Virus record (IMG/VR): IMGVR_UViG_3300017963_000426 | Span: 1 to 41,416 of that record | DNA: 41,416 nucleotides | Strand: one strand, 5' to 3' | Origin: a virus | Shown: piece after piece, positions 1,184 through 36,945 of the stretch | Layout: each line of letters opens with the position of its first letter | Numbering within the stretch: the stretch's first letter is position 1 | Translations under genes and position numbers: made by a program | The notes under the pieces: generated by a model | Told to the model about the DNA's origin: nothing | Seen by the model: only the letters and a program-made list of their open reading frames with translations | Databases searched by the model: none

Positions 1184-1899
1184 ACTGGCTAAATATAGAA
1201 ATTAAAACTCTTACCTCAAGTGAATTTCTTGGTTCTGATCCTATAGAAAGAGCAACATGGCTTTGTTTACTTCGTTATTGTGCACAACAAGAAAATGGTG
1301 GAATAATTAAGGATTGCTTTTCTTGGAAAGATAGAAAATGGATGCAATTATCTGGAGTAATATGTGATGAAGTTAAAACAAAATCATCTTTATGGAAATG
1401 GAAAGAAAATGACTTAATTGTTTGGAATTATCCGATAGAAAAAGAGTTAGAAGTTATTGCAAATAGAGAAAACGGAAAGAAAGGTGGGAGGCCAAGAAAA
1501 AGCAAAACAAAACCATGTGGTTATGAACTAGAAAAACCAAGTGGTTCAAAATCGGTGAAACGGAAAGGAAAGGAAAGGAAAGGAAAGGAAGAGGAAAAAG
1601 AAAAAAATAAAAAAGAAAGTTTTGATTTTTGTTGGTCTCTTTTTGGCAGTTATGGAAATAAACAAAAAGCTTCAAGATATTGGATGAGATTATCAGAAAA
1701 GGATCAGAAAAACATTAAAAGCAGAATTCCAATTTATTTGCAATATTTGAAAGATACTGGCGTATCAAAGAAAATGTTTGATGGATGGATAAATCCAGAA
1801 AATAGGATATGGGAAACAACCTATGAAAACTTATCAGTAAAAAAACAAAATCATAATGCTGATATGTCTTTTATGCTTGCAGCGGACGAGGAGTTGTAA
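1180..1899 (+). CDS. Phage replication initiation-type protein
   Basis: 239 residues. The N-terminal ~90 residues (MNWLNIEIKTLTSSEF...LLRYCAQQENGG...) resemble the winged-helix N-domain of phage replisome organisers. A linker with KKGGRPRK (about residues 98-106) and a basic/acidic low-complexity stretch KRKGKERKGKEEEKEK (about 127-142) follows. The C-terminal ~90 residues (GNKQKASRYWMRL...DGWINPENRIWE) look like the conserved W-containing tail of phage replication proteins. It lies two bases before the primase-helicase gene and probably opens the origin or loads that helicase. The linker is encoded by a GGAAA pentanucleotide repeat. The family call is by motif resemblance, not a search. Confidence 0.65.
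   Translation: MNWLNIEIKTLTSSEFLGSDPIERATWLCLLRYCAQQENGGIIKDCFSWKDRKWMQLSGVICDEVKTKSSLWKWKENDLIVWNYPIEKELEVIANRENGKKGGRPRKSKTKPCGYELEKPSGSKSVKRKGKERKGKEEEKEKNKKESFDFCWSLFGSYGNKQKASRYWMRLSEKDQKNIKSRIPIYLQYLKDTGVSKKMFDGWINPENRIWETTYENLSVKKQNHNADMSFMLAADEEL
1562..1589 (+). repeat. GGAAA pentanucleotide tandem repeat, about 5.6 copies
   Basis: Bases 1562-1589 read as five perfect GGAAA units plus GGA, inside the coding region of the replication gene. The unit is not a multiple of three, so gain or loss of one copy would shift the frame; the repeat encodes the alternating K-G-K-E-R-K-G-K-E linker. Such purine-only tracts in replication genes may also be part of the phage origin. Confidence 0.85.
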
Positions 1900-1900
1900 A

Positions 1901-3706
1901 ATGAGATTAACAGAATTAAAAAAACTTATCGGCAACCAAGCACAGCAAATAATAGTTTCTGATTTATCGTTAAAGCAAAAAGGTAGCTTGTACTCATGTC
2001 CTATAACAAAACATCACAAAGACACCATATCTACCAAGTGGTATTCCGACTCCTGTAAGTTCTATTGTCACGACTGCAAAAAAACATACGATATTATTGA
2101 TCATTCAAATAATGAATCTAATCGAATGGAATATCTATGTAAGCTTGCAAATATTGATTATACGCCTAAAGAATTTAAAGCACTTAAACCAATTACAACA
2201 AAAACAAGCACCGAGGGTTATAATTATTTACAGGAAAGAGGAATATCAAAAAGAACTATAAAAGATTACAAAGTTAGGGCTGACAAAGAAACGCTTTATT
2301 TTCACTATGCAACACCTGATAAAAAGCTGGTAAAGATTAAAAAGCGTTTAATAGCAGAGAAGAAATTTTTTGCTGAAGCTGGAGGAGAAGAAATATTATA
2401 CGGACTCCATTTATTTAAAAACCAAAAAGGTTTAATTCTTTGCGAAGGTGAAATTGATTGTTTAACAATTTATGAAATTATTTGCCAGATGGGAAAAGAA
2501 AAAGAATTCTTATGTAGTAGCGTTCCCAATGGTGCAGGTTCACTTAATGAATCTTGTATAAATAATTGTAGCGAATATTTAGATCAATTTGAGTTCATAA
2601 CTATTATACCCGATAATGATGAAGCTGGTAAAATATTAGAATACAATGCACTAAAATATTTAGGACAATATAAGCTTGATTCAATTAGATTACCCAGAGG
2701 TATAAAAGATGTTAATGAGTTGTACCAAAGTCCAGATCATAACCCATGTGATATATTTAAGCTCTCCAAAAAGCTTATACCTCGTTTAAGCGGTGTTTAT
2801 AGTTCTTCTAAAGTATCTGTTACAAAATTAAAGGATGGGGTTAGAACTGGGTTTATCACGCATGATTATAATGATAATGGGTTAAAACAAGGTAAACTAA
2901 CAGTAATAACAGGTAAAAGAGGGGACGGGAAAACAACCTATTGCAGACAAATTATTATTAGTTGTGCTAAGCAAGGTGTTAAGTCATTTATGTTTTGTGG
3001 TGAAACTAAAACATCAAATGAAAAGAGCAAGCTAGCAAGATTATGTGCAGAAAAGGGAGAAATAGTTAAGAATACAGGTATAGCAGGTAATTATATTTAC
3101 ACCCCTTCATTGCAAGCAGAGGAAAGATATAATAAATATTACTCAAATCATATCTTTATGGCTGATATTGATACAATTAAACGAAATGGAAAGCTATTTA
3201 AAAATCTTTTAATAGAAATGCGCAAAATGGCTCTTCATTATGGTGTAGAGGTCTTTGAGTTAGATAATTTAATGGTAATGTGTGAGCAGCAGGGTTCATA
3301 TTTATTCAGTGAACAAAAAAACATAATAATTAGTTTAGGGGCATTTGCTGAAGAAATGAATGTACATGTAATAATAGTGGCACACCCGAAAAAAGGGAAA
3401 GGTGAAGAGCTTGTTTCTGGGGCTGCTGAAATAGAAAACTATGCTGACACAATAATTAGGTATCTAAGATTAGATGATGAACAAAAGGCTCAGCTAGCTA
3501 AAAAAATGCCATCTCATAAGCTTGATTTATTAGAAAGAGCATCAGCTAGAACTAAAGTGGAAAAAATAAGAGATGATGGAAATAAAAAGATAGGATGGTT
3601 CGAGTGGGATGCAGTTAAGGGTGCTGTTTATGATATTTCAGATCTTGACGCATCAAAATGGTATGAAGAGCAAGGATATTGGACAAAAAGTTTACTTAGG
3701 AGGTAA
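1901..3706 (+). CDS. Primase-helicase, T7 gp4-like
   Basis: 601 residues. Start chosen at ATG 1901, eight bases after GAGGAG at 1888-1893; an upstream in-frame ATG at 1856 lies inside the previous gene. Domains in order: an N-terminal zinc-binding module (C33, H38/H39, C56-x2-C59); a TOPRIM primase core with LILCEGEIDCL near residues 180-190 and the acidic IIPDNDEAG near 235; and a DnaB/RecA-type helicase with Walker A GKRGDGKTT near 338-346 and a VIIVAHPKKGKG motif near 490. This is the layout of bifunctional primase-helicases that unwind the fork 5' to 3' and lay primers. No DNA polymerase gene is seen in the window, so host polymerase is presumably used. Confidence 0.9.
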   Translation: MRLTELKKLIGNQAQQIIVSDLSLKQKGSLYSCPITKHHKDTISTKWYSDSCKFYCHDCKKTYDIIDHSNNESNRMEYLCKLANIDYTPKEFKALKPITTKTSTEGYNYLQERGISKRTIKDYKVRADKETLYFHYATPDKKLVKIKKRLIAEKKFFAEAGGEEILYGLHLFKNQKGLILCEGEIDCLTIYEIICQMGKEKEFLCSSVPNGAGSLNESCINNCSEYLDQFEFITIIPDNDEAGKILEYNALKYLGQYKLDSIRLPRGIKDVNELYQSPDHNPCDIFKLSKKLIPRLSGVYSSSKVSVTKLKDGVRTGFITHDYNDNGLKQGKLTVITGKRGDGKTTYCRQIIISCAKQGVKSFMFCGETKTSNEKSKLARLCAEKGEIVKNTGIAGNYIYTPSLQAEERYNKYYSNHIFMADIDTIKRNGKLFKNLLIEMRKMALHYGVEVFELDNLMVMCEQQGSYLFSEQKNIIISLGAFAEEMNVHVIIVAHPKKGKGEELVSGAAEIENYADTIIRYLRLDDEQKAQLAKKMPSHKLDLLERASARTKVEKIRDDGNKKIGWFEWDAVKGAVYDISDLDASKWYEEQGYWTKSLLRR

Positions 3707-5719: not shown

Positions 5720-5896
5720 ATGAAAACGTATAGCAAAGAAGAAATAGAATGTGCTGACTGTGAAAATATTGCAGAAATACAATGCGAAGAGTGTGCAACA
5801 AAATTTTGTATATCATGTGCATCAAAACAATACGATTATATTTGTCCTGTATGTTCGCCAAGAAATATTAAAATATTGTGTGAGGAGCGACAATGA
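5720..5896 (+). CDS. Small cysteine-rich zinc-binding protein
   Basis: 58 residues from ATG 5720; stop TGA 5894-5896 overlaps the RusA ATG (ATGA). Eight cysteines form four CxxC pairs (C11/C14, C22/C25, C30/C33, C42/C45), the pattern of a B-box or double zinc-ribbon module likely holding two zinc ions. The ribosome site is poor, so translation level or start is uncertain. In bases 5671-5719 before it nothing else is seen. Coupling to RusA suggests a role in DNA metabolism, which is inference only. Confidence 0.55.
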   Translation: MKTYSKEEIECADCENIAEIQCEECATKFCISCASKQYDYICPVCSPRNIKILCEERQ

Positions 5897-6333
5897 AGCT
5901 ATCATTTACTTTTAATACTGAGCCTAAAGCCATACAGTCAGTCAGGTTTGCAAGGATGGGAAGATTTGTGAATACTTACCAGCCCAAATCTAATAAAGAC
6001 TGGAAAAATTTTATAAAGCTACAAGCATTATCTCAGCTTCCATATCCATTTAAGCTAATAGATGAAGCAATAGCAATTAGCAAGTGTCACTTTATTTTTA
6101 GCCCTTTAAGGTCTTTTCCAAAGTATAAGCTAAAAATGATAGAAGAGGGAAAAATTTTATACAAAACAACAAAACCTGATCTAGACAGCAATCTACTGAA
6201 GGGGCTGATTGATGCACTAAATGGTATTGTATTTAAAGATGATTCTTTAATAGTATCAACAAATAATATAAAAAAATACTACGGTCTTGAACCAAAGATT
6301 GAACTTGAAATAAAAACTATAAATCAAGATTAA
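5893..6333 (+). CDS. rusA: RusA-type Holliday junction resolvase
   Basis: 146 residues, typical for the family. The RusA signature is clear: KPDLDSNLLKGLIDALNGIV then FKDDSLI, giving the acidic residues D96, D98 and D116/D117 that bind Mg2+ in RusA. The N-terminus (MKLSFTFNTEPKAIQSVRFAR) matches the first strand region, with R20/R23 probably contacting DNA. The enzyme cuts four-way junctions and so resolves recombination or replication intermediates before packaging. It is the last gene of the first early run; the following 160 bp are AT-rich and non-coding. Confidence 0.9.
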   Translation: MKLSFTFNTEPKAIQSVRFARMGRFVNTYQPKSNKDWKNFIKLQALSQLPYPFKLIDEAIAISKCHFIFSPLRSFPKYKLKMIEEGKILYKTTKPDLDSNLLKGLIDALNGIVFKDDSLIVSTNNIKKYYGLEPKIELEIKTINQD

Positions 6334-6494: not shown

Positions 6495-6722
6495 ATGTTA
6501 TACTGCAAAAATTGTGAATATTTTAGAGAGATAATATCAGAAAAGCACGCTCAATGTGTAAAAAATATTGATTATTCACGAGATTTAGTATATGGAAAAA
6601 TAAATTTTGTTGGGGGAGGCGACTTCTTATCATGTGAATATGCTCGCAATAAGCCAAGTTTATGCGGAAAGCTAGCGAGATGGTATAAAAACAATAAAGA
6701 AAGGGATAACAATGGAACTTAA
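6495..6722 (+). CDS. Conserved small cysteine-containing phage protein
   Basis: 75 residues if begun at ATG 6495; a TTG at 6450 would add 15 residues but has no ribosome site, and the first CxxC then sits at the usual distance from the start. C4/C7 (YCKNCEYF), C20, C46 (FLSCEYAR) and C56 (SLCGKLARWY) match a common phage protein with the order CxxC...DxVxGK...CxxxR...CGxxxxxF, probably one zinc site. It overlaps the PAS-domain gene by 11 nt. The gap 6334-6494 is AT-rich; I see only a weak TTTAC/GTAAA hairpin at about 6336-6351. Confidence 0.65.
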   Translation: MLYCKNCEYFREIISEKHAQCVKNIDYSRDLVYGKINFVGGGDFLSCEYARNKPSLCGKLARWYKNNKERDNNGT

Positions 6723-7083
6723 TAACGATCAAATTGAAAAAATGATTGGTAAAGTCATACCTAAATCCACCGTGTGTATAACTGTTTATGACTTAGATCA
6801 AAAAAATGTGCTTTTTACTACTCCAGGATCATATGCAACATTCGGGGTACCTAAAAATTTAAAATATTCAGAATTAGTTAAATATTTCTTGGATAATATT
6901 ATTCATCCAGACTATAAAAAAGAACAAGTTGAAATATATAAAAGTGGAAAATTTCCACCAAGTCGAGAATATAGAATTATTCATCCAGTAAACGGTGAAA
7001 GACATATACGCGTAGAAACTTCCAGACCTATAAAAATGGAAAATAATAATATAATTATATGTGTACTAATGGATATAACATAA
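6712..7083 (+). CDS. Stand-alone PAS-domain protein
   Basis: 123 residues made up almost entirely of one PAS fold of the PAS_3 type. Landmarks in order: TVYDLDQKNVLFTTPGSYATF (first strands and the E/F helices), FLDNIIHPDYKKEQVE (the HPdD helix signature), SREYRIIHPVNGERHIRVET (G-H strands) and the closing VLMDIT. No kinase, cyclase, HTH or membrane segment is attached. PAS domains bind small ligands, haem or flavin, or mediate dimerisation of host signalling proteins. A free PAS domain in a phage early operon could act as a partner or decoy for a host sensor; that is inference. ATG 6712 overlaps the preceding gene. Confidence 0.8.
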   Translation: MELNNDQIEKMIGKVIPKSTVCITVYDLDQKNVLFTTPGSYATFGVPKNLKYSELVKYFLDNIIHPDYKKEQVEIYKSGKFPPSREYRIIHPVNGERHIRVETSRPIKMENNNIIICVLMDIT

Positions 7084-7232
7084 TGAATATAAAAATAGCA
7101 TCGTTAACCAGCATGTCTTTTGCATTAAATAACGATGAAAGATATTACATATTATATTTATTATTAGCTGCTATGGCAGGCATTAAAAGGTTAAATACTA
7201 CATATAATAAAAATACTATTAAAAGGAGATAA
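7083..7232 (+). CDS. Hypothetical 49-residue protein with hydrophobic centre
   Basis: ATG 7083 overlaps the PAS gene stop by one base. The centre (YYILYLLLAAMAGI) is hydrophobic but short for a membrane span, and the tail is basic (NKNTIKRR). Its last codons form the AAAAGGAGAT ribosome site of the next gene. No clear Shine-Dalgarno of its own; expression would rely on coupling. Unknown function. Confidence 0.4.
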   Translation: MNIKIASLTSMSFALNNDERYYILYLLLAAMAGIKRLNTTYNKNTIKRR

Positions 7233-7235
7233 AAA

Positions 7236-7412
7236 ATGGAAAACTCAAATATATCATTTTCTTTTGACAAAGATAATTGCAAATGTTATATAACTATAGA
7301 CAATGTTAACAGTTTTGAAGAAATAGAGCAGGGTGTTTATAAGTTAACAACGTCTCTCGCACCATCATTAAATATAGACTATCAAAATCTTATATCATAT
7401 GTATGTGAATAA
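7236..7412 (+). CDS. Hypothetical 58-residue protein
   Basis: ATG 7236 has an ideal ribosome site (AAAAGGAGAT at 7221-7230). The product is acidic (MENSNISFSFDKDNCKCYIT...) with alternating strands and a final ISYVCE. The stop TAA 7410-7412 directly abuts the next ATG. No family recognised. Confidence 0.55.
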   Translation: MENSNISFSFDKDNCKCYITIDNVNSFEEIEQGVYKLTTSLAPSLNIDYQNLISYVCE

Positions 7413-14310: not shown

Positions 14311-14386
14311 GCCAATTTAGCTCAGTTGGTAGAGCAAGTGATTTGTAATCTCTAGGTCGTTGGTTCGAATCCGACAATTGGCTCCA
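14311..14386 (+). tRNA. tRNA-Thr, anticodon TGT
   Basis: Cloverleaf: acceptor GCCAATT (14311-14317) pairs perfectly with AATTGGC; D-stem GCTC/GAGC; anticodon stem AGTGA/TCTCT with one central T-T mismatch; loop TTTGTAA with anticodon TGT reading ACA; T-arm GTTGG-TTCGAAT-CCGAC. CCA is encoded at the 3' end. It lies between portal and the MuF-like gene and is presumably cut from the late transcript. Confidence 0.92.
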
Positions 14387-33879: not shown

Positions 33880-33958
33880 GCCCGTATGGTGTAATTGGCT
33901 AACACGTCGCACTTTCTATGCGAAGATATAGTCGGTTCGAGTCCGCTTGCGGGTACCA
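33880..33958 (+). tRNA. tRNA-Glu, anticodon TTC
   Basis: Acceptor GCCCGTA pairs with TGCGGGT (two G-T pairs); D-stem GTGT/ACAC; anticodon stem TCGCA/TGCGA perfect, loop CTTTCTA with anticodon TTC reading GAA; T-loop TTCGAGT with a stem GTCGG/CCGCT that has one mismatch and one G-T pair. CCA is encoded. The variable region looks 1-2 nt longer than usual. Lies between two lysis-region genes. Confidence 0.85.
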
Positions 33959-34690: not shown

Positions 34691-35293
34691 TTAATTATGT
34701 CTAATGTTGCTTCTTATATTTAATTTATATATGATTTCTTGATTTTGTAGTGATTGAGAAGAATATTTATTCGCAAGTGTAGAATTTGGGTCTGGCCCAA
34801 TATCTTTATATGGTCTTATTCCTCTTCGCCAAGCCCAAGGAGGAATAGGGTTATTTTGCTTCCATAGCCCCATTTTATCTCTTTTGGCCTCTGCTTCTGC
34901 TTTTGCTAAGTCTTTATCTTTAGAGTATTGTTTATAATGCCAAGCCAAGCCTAGTTTAACAAGCCTTTTGTTTACGTATACATTATTACAATATACTTTG
35001 CCTATAATTCTTCCGTATCTTCCCTTTTTATCATATCCAACTCTAACAATATTATTGTTTGTAAGAAAGCTGAGAAGGTTTTTTGCGTCATTACCATATG
35101 GTTGTGCCTTTTCTGGACAATCAATACCATATAGCCTTACTTTAATTTTATCTCCACTATGTGTTAGTATTTGTATGGTATCCCCATCATATACTTTAAT
35201 AACTTTTCCAGAAATTTGAGAAGAATATAAGCAGTTTATAAATAGCGAAAAATATGCCAATAAGATACTTTTAATTATTATTTTCATTTTCAT
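34691..35293 (-). CDS. Secreted thermonuclease (SNase family)
   Basis: 200 residues from ATG 35293, preceded by GGAG at the right distance; an upstream ATG at 35305 contains that ribosome site. A signal peptide (MKMKIIIKSILLAYFSLFIN, ending near residue 25) targets it for export. The staphylococcal-nuclease fold is complete: VYDGDTI (D36/D38), R53 in KVRLYGID, D58, E61, and R95 in KGRYGR correspond to the Ca2+ ligands D21/D40 and catalytic R35, E43, R87 of SNase. C-terminal WKQNNPIPPWAWRRG follows as in many bacterial homologues. It would cut DNA or RNA in the periplasm or outside; a role against incoming phage DNA is inference. The 77-bp gap 34614-34690 holds nothing else. Confidence 0.88.
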   Translation of the reverse strand: MKMKIIIKSILLAYFSLFINCLYSSQISGKVIKVYDGDTIQILTHSGDKIKVRLYGIDCPEKAQPYGNDAKNLLSFLTNNNIVRVGYDKKGRYGRIIGKVYCNNVYVNKRLVKLGLAWHYKQYSKDKDLAKAEAEAKRDKMGLWKQNNPIPPWAWRRGIRPYKDIGPDPNSTLANKYSSQSLQNQEIIYKLNIRSNIRHN

Positions 35294-35352
35294 TGTTGAC
35301 TCCATTTTAGATTAAATAGAATAGCATCGCAAACAATATAGCAGCAATACCT

Positions 35353-35761: not shown

Positions 35762-35970
35762 TTTTTATCTCCTAGCATATTAAATTGTAGTTTTGTTATA
35801 TGAACATTAAATTCAAGTAGACTTTTAATAGCTTTATTATATATCTCTGTACATATTTTTTCTCTTTGGGTGTTAAACTCAATAATATCTAATATAGAAT
35901 CTATTACAGAGAGATGATGTTTGATGCTATCAAACTTCTTTTGCAGTTGTAGTTCTCTTATTTCGTTCAT
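35758..35970 (-). CDS. Hypothetical 70-residue helical protein
   Basis: Leftward from ATG 35970 with AAAGGATTATC upstream; its TGA overlaps the next ATG (ATGA). Predicted as two helices (LQLQKKFDSIKHHLSVIDSI, YNKAIKSLLEFNVHITKLQF). No family recognised; operon context only. Confidence 0.55.
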   Translation of the reverse strand: MNEIRELQLQKKFDSIKHHLSVIDSILDIIEFNTQREKICTEIYNKAIKSLLEFNVHITKLQFNMLGDKK

Positions 35971-36002
35971 GATAATCCTTTGTTTTTATTGTAATATAAT
36001 CA

Positions 36003-36269
36003 TTAGCCAGAGCCATTGCCATTGCCATAGCCATTGCCATCGCCAGAGCCATCGCCAGAGCCATCGCCATAGCCATCGCCATAGCCATCGCCATTGCCAT
36101 AGCCATCGCCAGAGCCATCGCCATAGCCAGAGCCATAGCCAGAGCCATTGCCAGAGCCATCGCCAGAGCCATCGCCAGAGCCATTGCCAGAGCCATCGCC
36201 AGAGCCATCGCCAGAGCCATAGCCAGAGCCATCGCCATAATTTATAGGTTGTTTATTTATTTTTTCCAT
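36003..36269 (-). CDS. Gly-rich GDGSG-repeat protein
   Basis: 88 residues from ATG 36269, with AAAGAGGT upstream; the gene overlaps the 36601 gene by 13 nt. After MEKINKQPINY the whole protein is alternating glycine with Asp, Ser, Tyr or Asn (GDGSGYGSGDGSG...). It is encoded by a hexanucleotide repeat. Such G-x repeat proteins are found in phages next to the conserved gene seen here at 36601. The sequence should be disordered and may bind Ca2+ through its aspartates, or serve as a flexible linker; neither is shown. Confidence 0.6.
   Translation of the reverse strand: MEKINKQPINYGDGSGYGSGDGSGDGSGNGSGDGSGDGSGNGSGYGSGYGDGSGDGYGNGDGYGDGYGDGSGDGSGDGNGYGNGNGSG
36007..36236. repeat. Hexanucleotide microsatellite, about 38 units
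   Basis: On the + strand the tract is a chain of 6-mers GCCAGA, GCCATT, GCCATC and GCCATA in irregular order for about 230 bp. Unit length is a multiple of three, so copy-number change keeps all frames: all three frames on the minus strand and one on the plus strand stay open. Local GC is far above the surrounding AT-rich DNA. Confidence 0.9.
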
Positions 36270-36601
36270 TCTGGGACCTCTTTGATTGATTTAATTGCCT
36301 TTTTAGTACATGGGATGATTTCTATTGCTTCTAGCAACGTTATCTTTTCTATCTCACAAGAAAACTTGCAATTATCTGGAGCATTTGTTCCATCTTTAGA
36401 TAACTGGCTGAGAGAACATGCACCATCCCAATACCAGATGCGCCTTGTATTAATCAGTTCTACCTCTTTGCCTTTTCTTGATTTTAGATAGCCAGCATGT
36501 ACACCAGCCGAAAAAGTGCGAATGATTACGTACTCTAAGCCTTCTTGTTTGTTTTCTTTAGATACATACTCAATGCCGTTAATTGTTAATGTCTCTTCCA
36601 T
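36257..36601 (-). CDS. Conserved phage protein of unknown function (DUF6948-like)
   Basis: 114 residues from ATG 36601, with AAGGATAAAAAA upstream; an upstream in-frame ATG at 36853 lies beyond the divergent promoters and is not used. Strings: TINGIEYVSKENKQEGLEYV, TFSAGVHAGYLKSRKGKEVE, RRIWYWDGACSLSQLSKDGT, NAPDNCKFSCEIEKITLLEA, ending SIKEVPEW. I recognise these as a widespread phage family of unknown role (DUF6948 from memory). First gene of the leftward operon, transcribed from the promoter at 36636-36663. Confidence 0.75.
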   Translation of the reverse strand: MEETLTINGIEYVSKENKQEGLEYVIIRTFSAGVHAGYLKSRKGKEVELINTRRIWYWDGACSLSQLSKDGTNAPDNCKFSCEIEKITLLEAIEIIPCTKKAIKSIKEVPEWKK

Positions 36602-36635
36602 TTTTTTATCCTTTCTTGTTTTGGTTCTATTATCA

Positions 36636-36663
36636 ATTTTACCTCTTAATATATTAATTACAA
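36636..36663 (-). promoter_or_regulatory. Leftward promoter with palindromic spacer
   Basis: On the minus strand TTGTAA (36663-36658) and TAAAAT (36641-36636) are 16 bp apart. The spacer contains TTAATATATTAA (36646-36657), a perfect 12-bp palindrome that could be an operator. It lies 35 bp upstream of the leftward operon's first gene. Confidence 0.5.
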
Positions 36664-36704
36664 GAGAAAATACAAAAAAAATATAATATTTTTGCAAAAT
36701 AGGC

Positions 36705-36732
36705 TTGAAAAGAGTAGATGACTCTATATAAT
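36705..36732 (+). promoter_or_regulatory. Rightward early promoter
   Basis: TTGAAA at 36705-36710 and TATAAT at 36727-36732, spacer 16 bp. The spacer holds a short dyad GAGT-5-ACTC (36712-36724). The octamer CTTGAAAA covering the -35 (36704-36711) recurs in the dyad of the second early promoter at 40090. Confidence 0.65.
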
Positions 36733-36777
36733 AATTAGTAAAGAGAACTAAAATAAACCAAGATAGAAGGAACAAAC

Positions 36778-36945
36778 ATGGAGAGAAAAACAATAATAAT
36801 AAACAAATTTGCTCATTCAATTTTAAAGAAAGAGTCAAAGAGACGAAGAGCAAATAAAGAGGTAAGCCTAAGCAAAGCTATAAGCGATATAGGTTCAGAA
36901 TATATAATTGAATATTCAAAACAAATAAAGGAGTCAAAAAAATGA
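36778..36945 (+). CDS. Small basic protein, possible ribbon-helix-helix
   Basis: 55 residues from ATG 36778 (AGAAGGAACAAAC). Pattern: a short strand-like basic start (MERKTIIINKF), a basic stretch KKESKRRRANK, then EVSLSKAISDIGSEYIIEYS, which resembles the second helix of RHH repressors. First gene behind the rightward early promoter, a typical place for a regulator. TGA 36943-36945 overlaps the next ATG. RHH assignment is tentative. Confidence 0.5.
   Translation: MERKTIIINKFAHSILKKESKRRRANKEVSLSKAISDIGSEYIIEYSKQIKESKK

Follow-up and report, generated by a model that had tools for sequence, protein, structure and literature searches.

PAS domains that lack an effector

The short LOV proteins (DsLOV, RsLOV, PpSB1 and VVD) are a well-known class of PAS-fold proteins without an effector domain, believed to pass on their signal via partner proteins (PMC4335406). 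DsLOV carries an N-cap, lacks a C-terminal extension and dimerises via its N-terminus (PMC4335406). Among phages, VP882 encodes the regulator VqmA, whose PAS domain serves as the dimerisation unit and reads the autoinducer DPO (PMC8284805). The early phage protein PIT4 is reported to bind several host histidine kinases; its targets are the kinase domains and the abstract does not call it a PAS protein (PMC10714779), and it serves here purely as a functional precedent. In the literature searched, no PAS-only phage protein is described as interfering with bacterial signalling.

The window analysed here is the whole 41,416-nucleotide stretch of the virus record IMGVR_UViG_3300017963_000426. It contains a gene whose product, 123 amino acids long, consists of a single divergent PAS domain of the PAS_3 type. 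Such a stand-alone phage protein is uncommon and tidy, yet of a known kind, output-less PAS proteins being known from cells and seemingly present in a few other viruses.

The gene and its neighbourhood

The PAS gene sits in a dense run of plus-strand genes, the relevant members of which are as follows:

1856-3706, plus strand: primase/DnaB-type helicase, by which the run is recognised as the replication module
5893-6333, plus strand: RusA Holliday-junction resolvase (PF05866, E 1.6e-20), upstream of the PAS gene
6495-6722, plus strand: Cys-rich 75-aa protein with 5 Cys, its end overlapping the PAS start by 11 nt
6712-7083, plus strand: stand-alone PAS-domain protein, 123 aa, ATG start
7083-7232, plus strand: 49-aa protein that contains a hydrophobic stretch and whose ATG overlaps the PAS stop (TAATG at 7083)
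7236-7412, plus strand: 58-aa protein with its own Shine-Dalgarno sequence, AAAGGAGAT

The open reading frame at 6712-7083 was found where the sequence-only reading had placed it, and every motif quoted in that reading is present in its product. The sequence GAAAGGGATAACAATG occurs at the start of the gene, which begins directly behind a Shine-Dalgarno-like AAAGGGAT. Codon log-odds are +0.32 per codon in frame versus -0.13 and -0.12 in the other two forward frames, a signal as strong as that of known neighbouring genes. This Shine-Dalgarno-like site, the coding signal and the overlap with both neighbours identify 6712-7083 as a genuine gene. Scans for promoter and terminator consensus sequences gave results at or near chance.

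The genes following the 58-aa gene are of tail/baseplate type (phrog_20556) and are succeeded by the small (11198) and large (11583) terminase genes. Because RusA and primase precede it and tail and terminase genes follow, the PAS gene marks the end of the replication module, adjoining the late genes. Its earlier placement in an early or replication operon thus agrees with the gene content and needs amending as to position, since the gene is among the last of the module.

No Pfam, PHROG or PADLOC family was found for the Cys-rich 75-aa protein, which is possibly a small metal-binding protein; the 49-aa protein has no family match and the 58-aa protein no Pfam or PHROG family. The 49-aa gene is without a clear Shine-Dalgarno sequence of its own and is therefore probably translationally coupled. 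From the overlaps we infer co-translation of the PAS gene with the 75-aa and 49-aa genes.

Elsewhere in the window, a 206-bp direct repeat with 95.6% identity lies at 1-206 and 41211-41416, inside a pentapeptide-repeat gene. Because this repeat is terminal, the record probably represents a nearly complete genome, circular or terminally redundant, with ends derived from slightly different variants. Genes for tRNA-Thr(tgt) and tRNA-Glu(ttc) are located at 14311-14386, between the portal and head genes, and at 33880-33958, respectively. On the minus strand, opposite to most genes, 34691-35305 encodes an SNase-type nuclease (PF00565, E 1e-25) with an apparent signal-peptide-like start, which looks like an exported nuclease carried by the phage. 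In the list of open reading frames, MALAMAMA and HSHRQSHR runs on opposite strands at 35930-36247 reveal about 300 bp of simple-sequence repeat, adjoined by the gene of a DUF6948 protein (36257-36853, minus strand; PF22253, E 6.7e-31).

Sequence and fold of the PAS protein

The best Pfam match of the 123-aa protein, and the only near-significant one, is PAS_3 (PF08447), at 21.5 bits (E 2.9e-4) over residues 57-115 only and below the curated cut-off of 25.6 bits for this family. PHROGs, NCBIfam and PADLOC returned no family for it. A dedicated profile made from 17 PAS domains, with the 123-aa protein left out, scores it at 15.9 bits, compared with 7.3 bits for the best of 2000 shuffles and 7.1 bits for the next open reading frame of the window. 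When 9,850 open frames taken from the terminase-related loci described below are scored by HMM, again with a model built without this protein, the 123-aa protein reaches E 0.006 versus E 0.32 for the next-best frame outside the PAS-holding loci. Profile-profile comparison (hhalign) gives E 1.7e-4 and a probability of 50% over residues 58-123. By the shuffles and by hhalign, the similarity to PAS domains is thus statistically significant. In addition, the HPD, EYRI, G and DIT motifs follow one another in the same order as in other PAS domains. A tblastn search of plasmids recovered only weak PAS similarity; its top match is an annotated PAS protein, and another match scores as PAS on the dedicated profile.

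AlphaFold2 run on the lone sequence, with no alignment, gave a pLDDT of 37.8. When seven remote PAS domains taken from viral contigs were supplied as an alignment, it returned a complete PAS topology (pLDDT 84.6, pTM 0.73). As this input itself consisted of PAS domains, the model is partly circular and speaks for compatibility more than as independent proof. The predicted elements are:

Residues 5-13: predicted N-cap helix
Residues 20-123: predicted PAS core, comprising strands 21-27 and 32-36, helices 39-44, 52-63 and 66-78, and strands 84-90, 97-108 and 113-121

The order of elements in the model matches the PAS topology of two strands, helices and three strands, which make up a five-stranded sheet. 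A structure search with the model gives 181 matching PDB chains at E up to 0.001, and among the matches listed all are PAS/LOV-type domains. A second aligner gives Z scores of up to 13.3 against solved PAS domains, the best being the PAS domain of Brucella LOV-HK (6pps); a further solved PAS match, 3h9w, has a Z of 12.0. Structure prediction, which had been named as a check, accordingly returned a PAS fold, albeit from PAS-derived input.

The chain ends precisely with the last PAS strand, that of 'DIT', and has no C-terminal linker helix; no output domain was found in it or in the two genes downstream. The description of a complete PAS fold and nothing else is therefore upheld, only an N-cap helix being added and nothing lying past 'DIT'. 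Taken together, the sequence tests and the model make it almost certain that the 123-aa protein is a PAS domain. The sub-threshold Pfam score, the failed single-sequence prediction, the PAS alignment behind the confident model and the middling hhalign probability would all suit a chance match or another alpha/beta fold; this is nevertheless very improbable given the margin over 2000 shuffles, the conserved motif order and the PAS character of the plasmid matches.

Relatives and comparison with described proteins

The phage belongs to a poorly sampled lineage, its terminase reaching at most about 60% identity to the nearest fragments. Sequence searches of viral contigs, genome contigs, phage records and plasmids yielded no convincing orthologue of the PAS protein. 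For want of any relative by sequence, the survey of related phages is empty rather than negative. A set of about 165 loci related through the terminase was assembled, 54 of which extend at least 5 kb upstream of that gene. Exhaustive HMM scoring of 9,850 open frames from these loci, in which the window's PAS protein acted as positive control, detected no second stand-alone PAS. This does not imply that close relatives lack the gene, because most of these loci are fragments and are related through the terminase only. A Pfam-family search of 39 records misses the window's own PAS gene and is for that reason uninformative for divergent PAS domains; a search with PAS_9 suffers from this defect too, and the single weak match that it gave (locus L098) lies in an unrelated frame at a contig end. 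With no orthologue known, there is no conservation that supports any interface.

PAS matches found by sequence in viral contigs are large multi-domain proteins of cellular type. For one generic query, 6 of 50,697 phage records contain a PAS match; the frames of four were read, two Acinetobacter phage matches being left out, and these encode large proteins that are multi-domain, kinase or GGDEF-type. A structure search of BFVD, on the other hand, returned phage proteins that measure 165-205 aa and carry the label 'PAS domain' or 'histidine kinase'. Four of these (A0A6J5NY05, 205 aa; A0A6J5KZZ3, 169 aa; A0A6J5QVN9, 195 aa; A0A8D9CBR8, 165 aa) resemble the present protein in being small phage proteins with a PAS fold, but they are 40-80 residues longer and share 9-15% identity with it over the structural alignment. 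Output-less phage PAS proteins appear to exist already, those in BFVD being known by label, size and structural match. Cellulophaga phi18:3 gp090 was set aside as a weak structural match with no Pfam PAS hit, tied to a BFVD entry by length only.

The PAS_3 domains of bacterial sensor kinases and diguanylate cyclases share with the phage protein the order of HPD, EYRI, G and DIT and the predicted fold. The phage protein differs from them in falling under the family cut-off, in being several residues shorter between HPD and EYRI, and in having neither linker helix nor output domain. The short LOV proteins (DsLOV, PpSB1-LOV, W619_1 and VVD), like the phage protein, consist of a single PAS-fold domain with an N-cap helix and no effector. 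W619_1 and PpSB1 align structurally from residue 1 or 2 to residue 123, so that the N-cap is covered, and an N-cap and core without a C-terminal helix is the architecture reported for DsLOV and VVD (PMC4335406). In contrast to the short LOV proteins, however, the phage protein has no LOV cysteine/flavin motif, is outside the LOV sequence family and is encoded by a phage rather than a cellular gene. VqmA of phage VP882 is also a phage-encoded PAS protein with a regulatory role, but its PAS is fused to an HTH DNA-binding domain, whereas the 123-aa protein ends at the last PAS strand. The generalisation that PAS domains are nearly always fused must accordingly be softened, in view of the short LOV class (PMC4335406) and of the BFVD phage proteins.

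Possible modes of action

Since it contains no enzyme or DNA-binding part, the PAS protein must presumably act in trans. By analogy with the short LOV proteins, its N-cap/beta-sheet face would pair with another protein and thereby change the activity of that partner. The partner would most likely be a host sensor that bears a PAS domain, be it a kinase, cyclase or regulator, and less likely the coupled phage proteins, and a small molecule, if the PAS protein binds one, would gate the pairing. Action in trans by PAS pairing, most likely with a host sensor as the predicted partner, is the leading reading, though a tentative one. The fuller prediction, that a minimal PAS without the usual haem or flavin site heterodimerises into PAS-bearing host sensors during infection, is doubtful. 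A putative resetting of host signalling is possible. Alternatively, the PAS protein may form a small phage-encoded complex together with the 75-aa and 49-aa proteins, in which its fold would serve as a scaffold in DNA metabolism or in the change to late genes, with no link to host signalling. The start/stop overlaps on both sides suggest co-translation and perhaps a fixed stoichiometry, and the PAS gene stands between RusA and the late genes; however, both neighbours are without a known family, and compact phage genomes often contain overlaps, which need not entail a complex, so that this alternative appears rather unlikely. The data fit a pairing with host sensors and such a phage complex alike, and a purely structural use of the PAS fold would suit the sequence equally well.

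A ligand pocket is a frequent feature of PAS cores, and the sequence-only reading had raised the prospect of bound haem or flavin. When the FixL and DosP sequences, verified against PDB entries beforehand, are aligned with the 123-aa protein, their axial histidines, which are located in the helix that follows the HPD-like motif, coincide with Val73, and the only cysteines of the protein, Cys22 and Cys116, are not in a GxNCRFLQ-type LOV motif. Because of Val73 and the missing LOV cysteine motif, FixL/DosP-type haem and LOV flavin chemistry are not expected, and a haem or flavin ligand is disfavoured. The same residues weigh against a free-standing small-molecule sensor, metabolite- or redox-gated, that steers a phage decision in the manner of an output-less VqmA or a PYP-like protein. 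The frequency of ligand pockets in PAS cores and the reading of DPO by the VP882 PAS domain (PMC8284805) lend this idea some substance; lacking a DNA-binding part as well, the protein is unlikely to be such a sensor. A sensor kinase gene captured from a host and left as a truncated, functionless relic would account for a domain that ends exactly where the linker to an output domain would begin, and most PAS_3 domains found do lie in long multi-domain frames. Yet the start, Shine-Dalgarno sequence, coding signal and overlapping neighbours are intact, the fold is complete with its own N-cap, no remnant of an output domain lies downstream, and divergence from all PAS domains found points to a long independent history, all of which makes a relic distinctly unlikely.

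If the PAS protein does act on host sensors, it would be a natural dominant-negative of PAS signalling in compact form, and phage replication would be tied to two-component or cyclic-dinucleotide control in the host. Apart from any such action, it is a very small phage PAS protein and a tractable bait for pull-down experiments.
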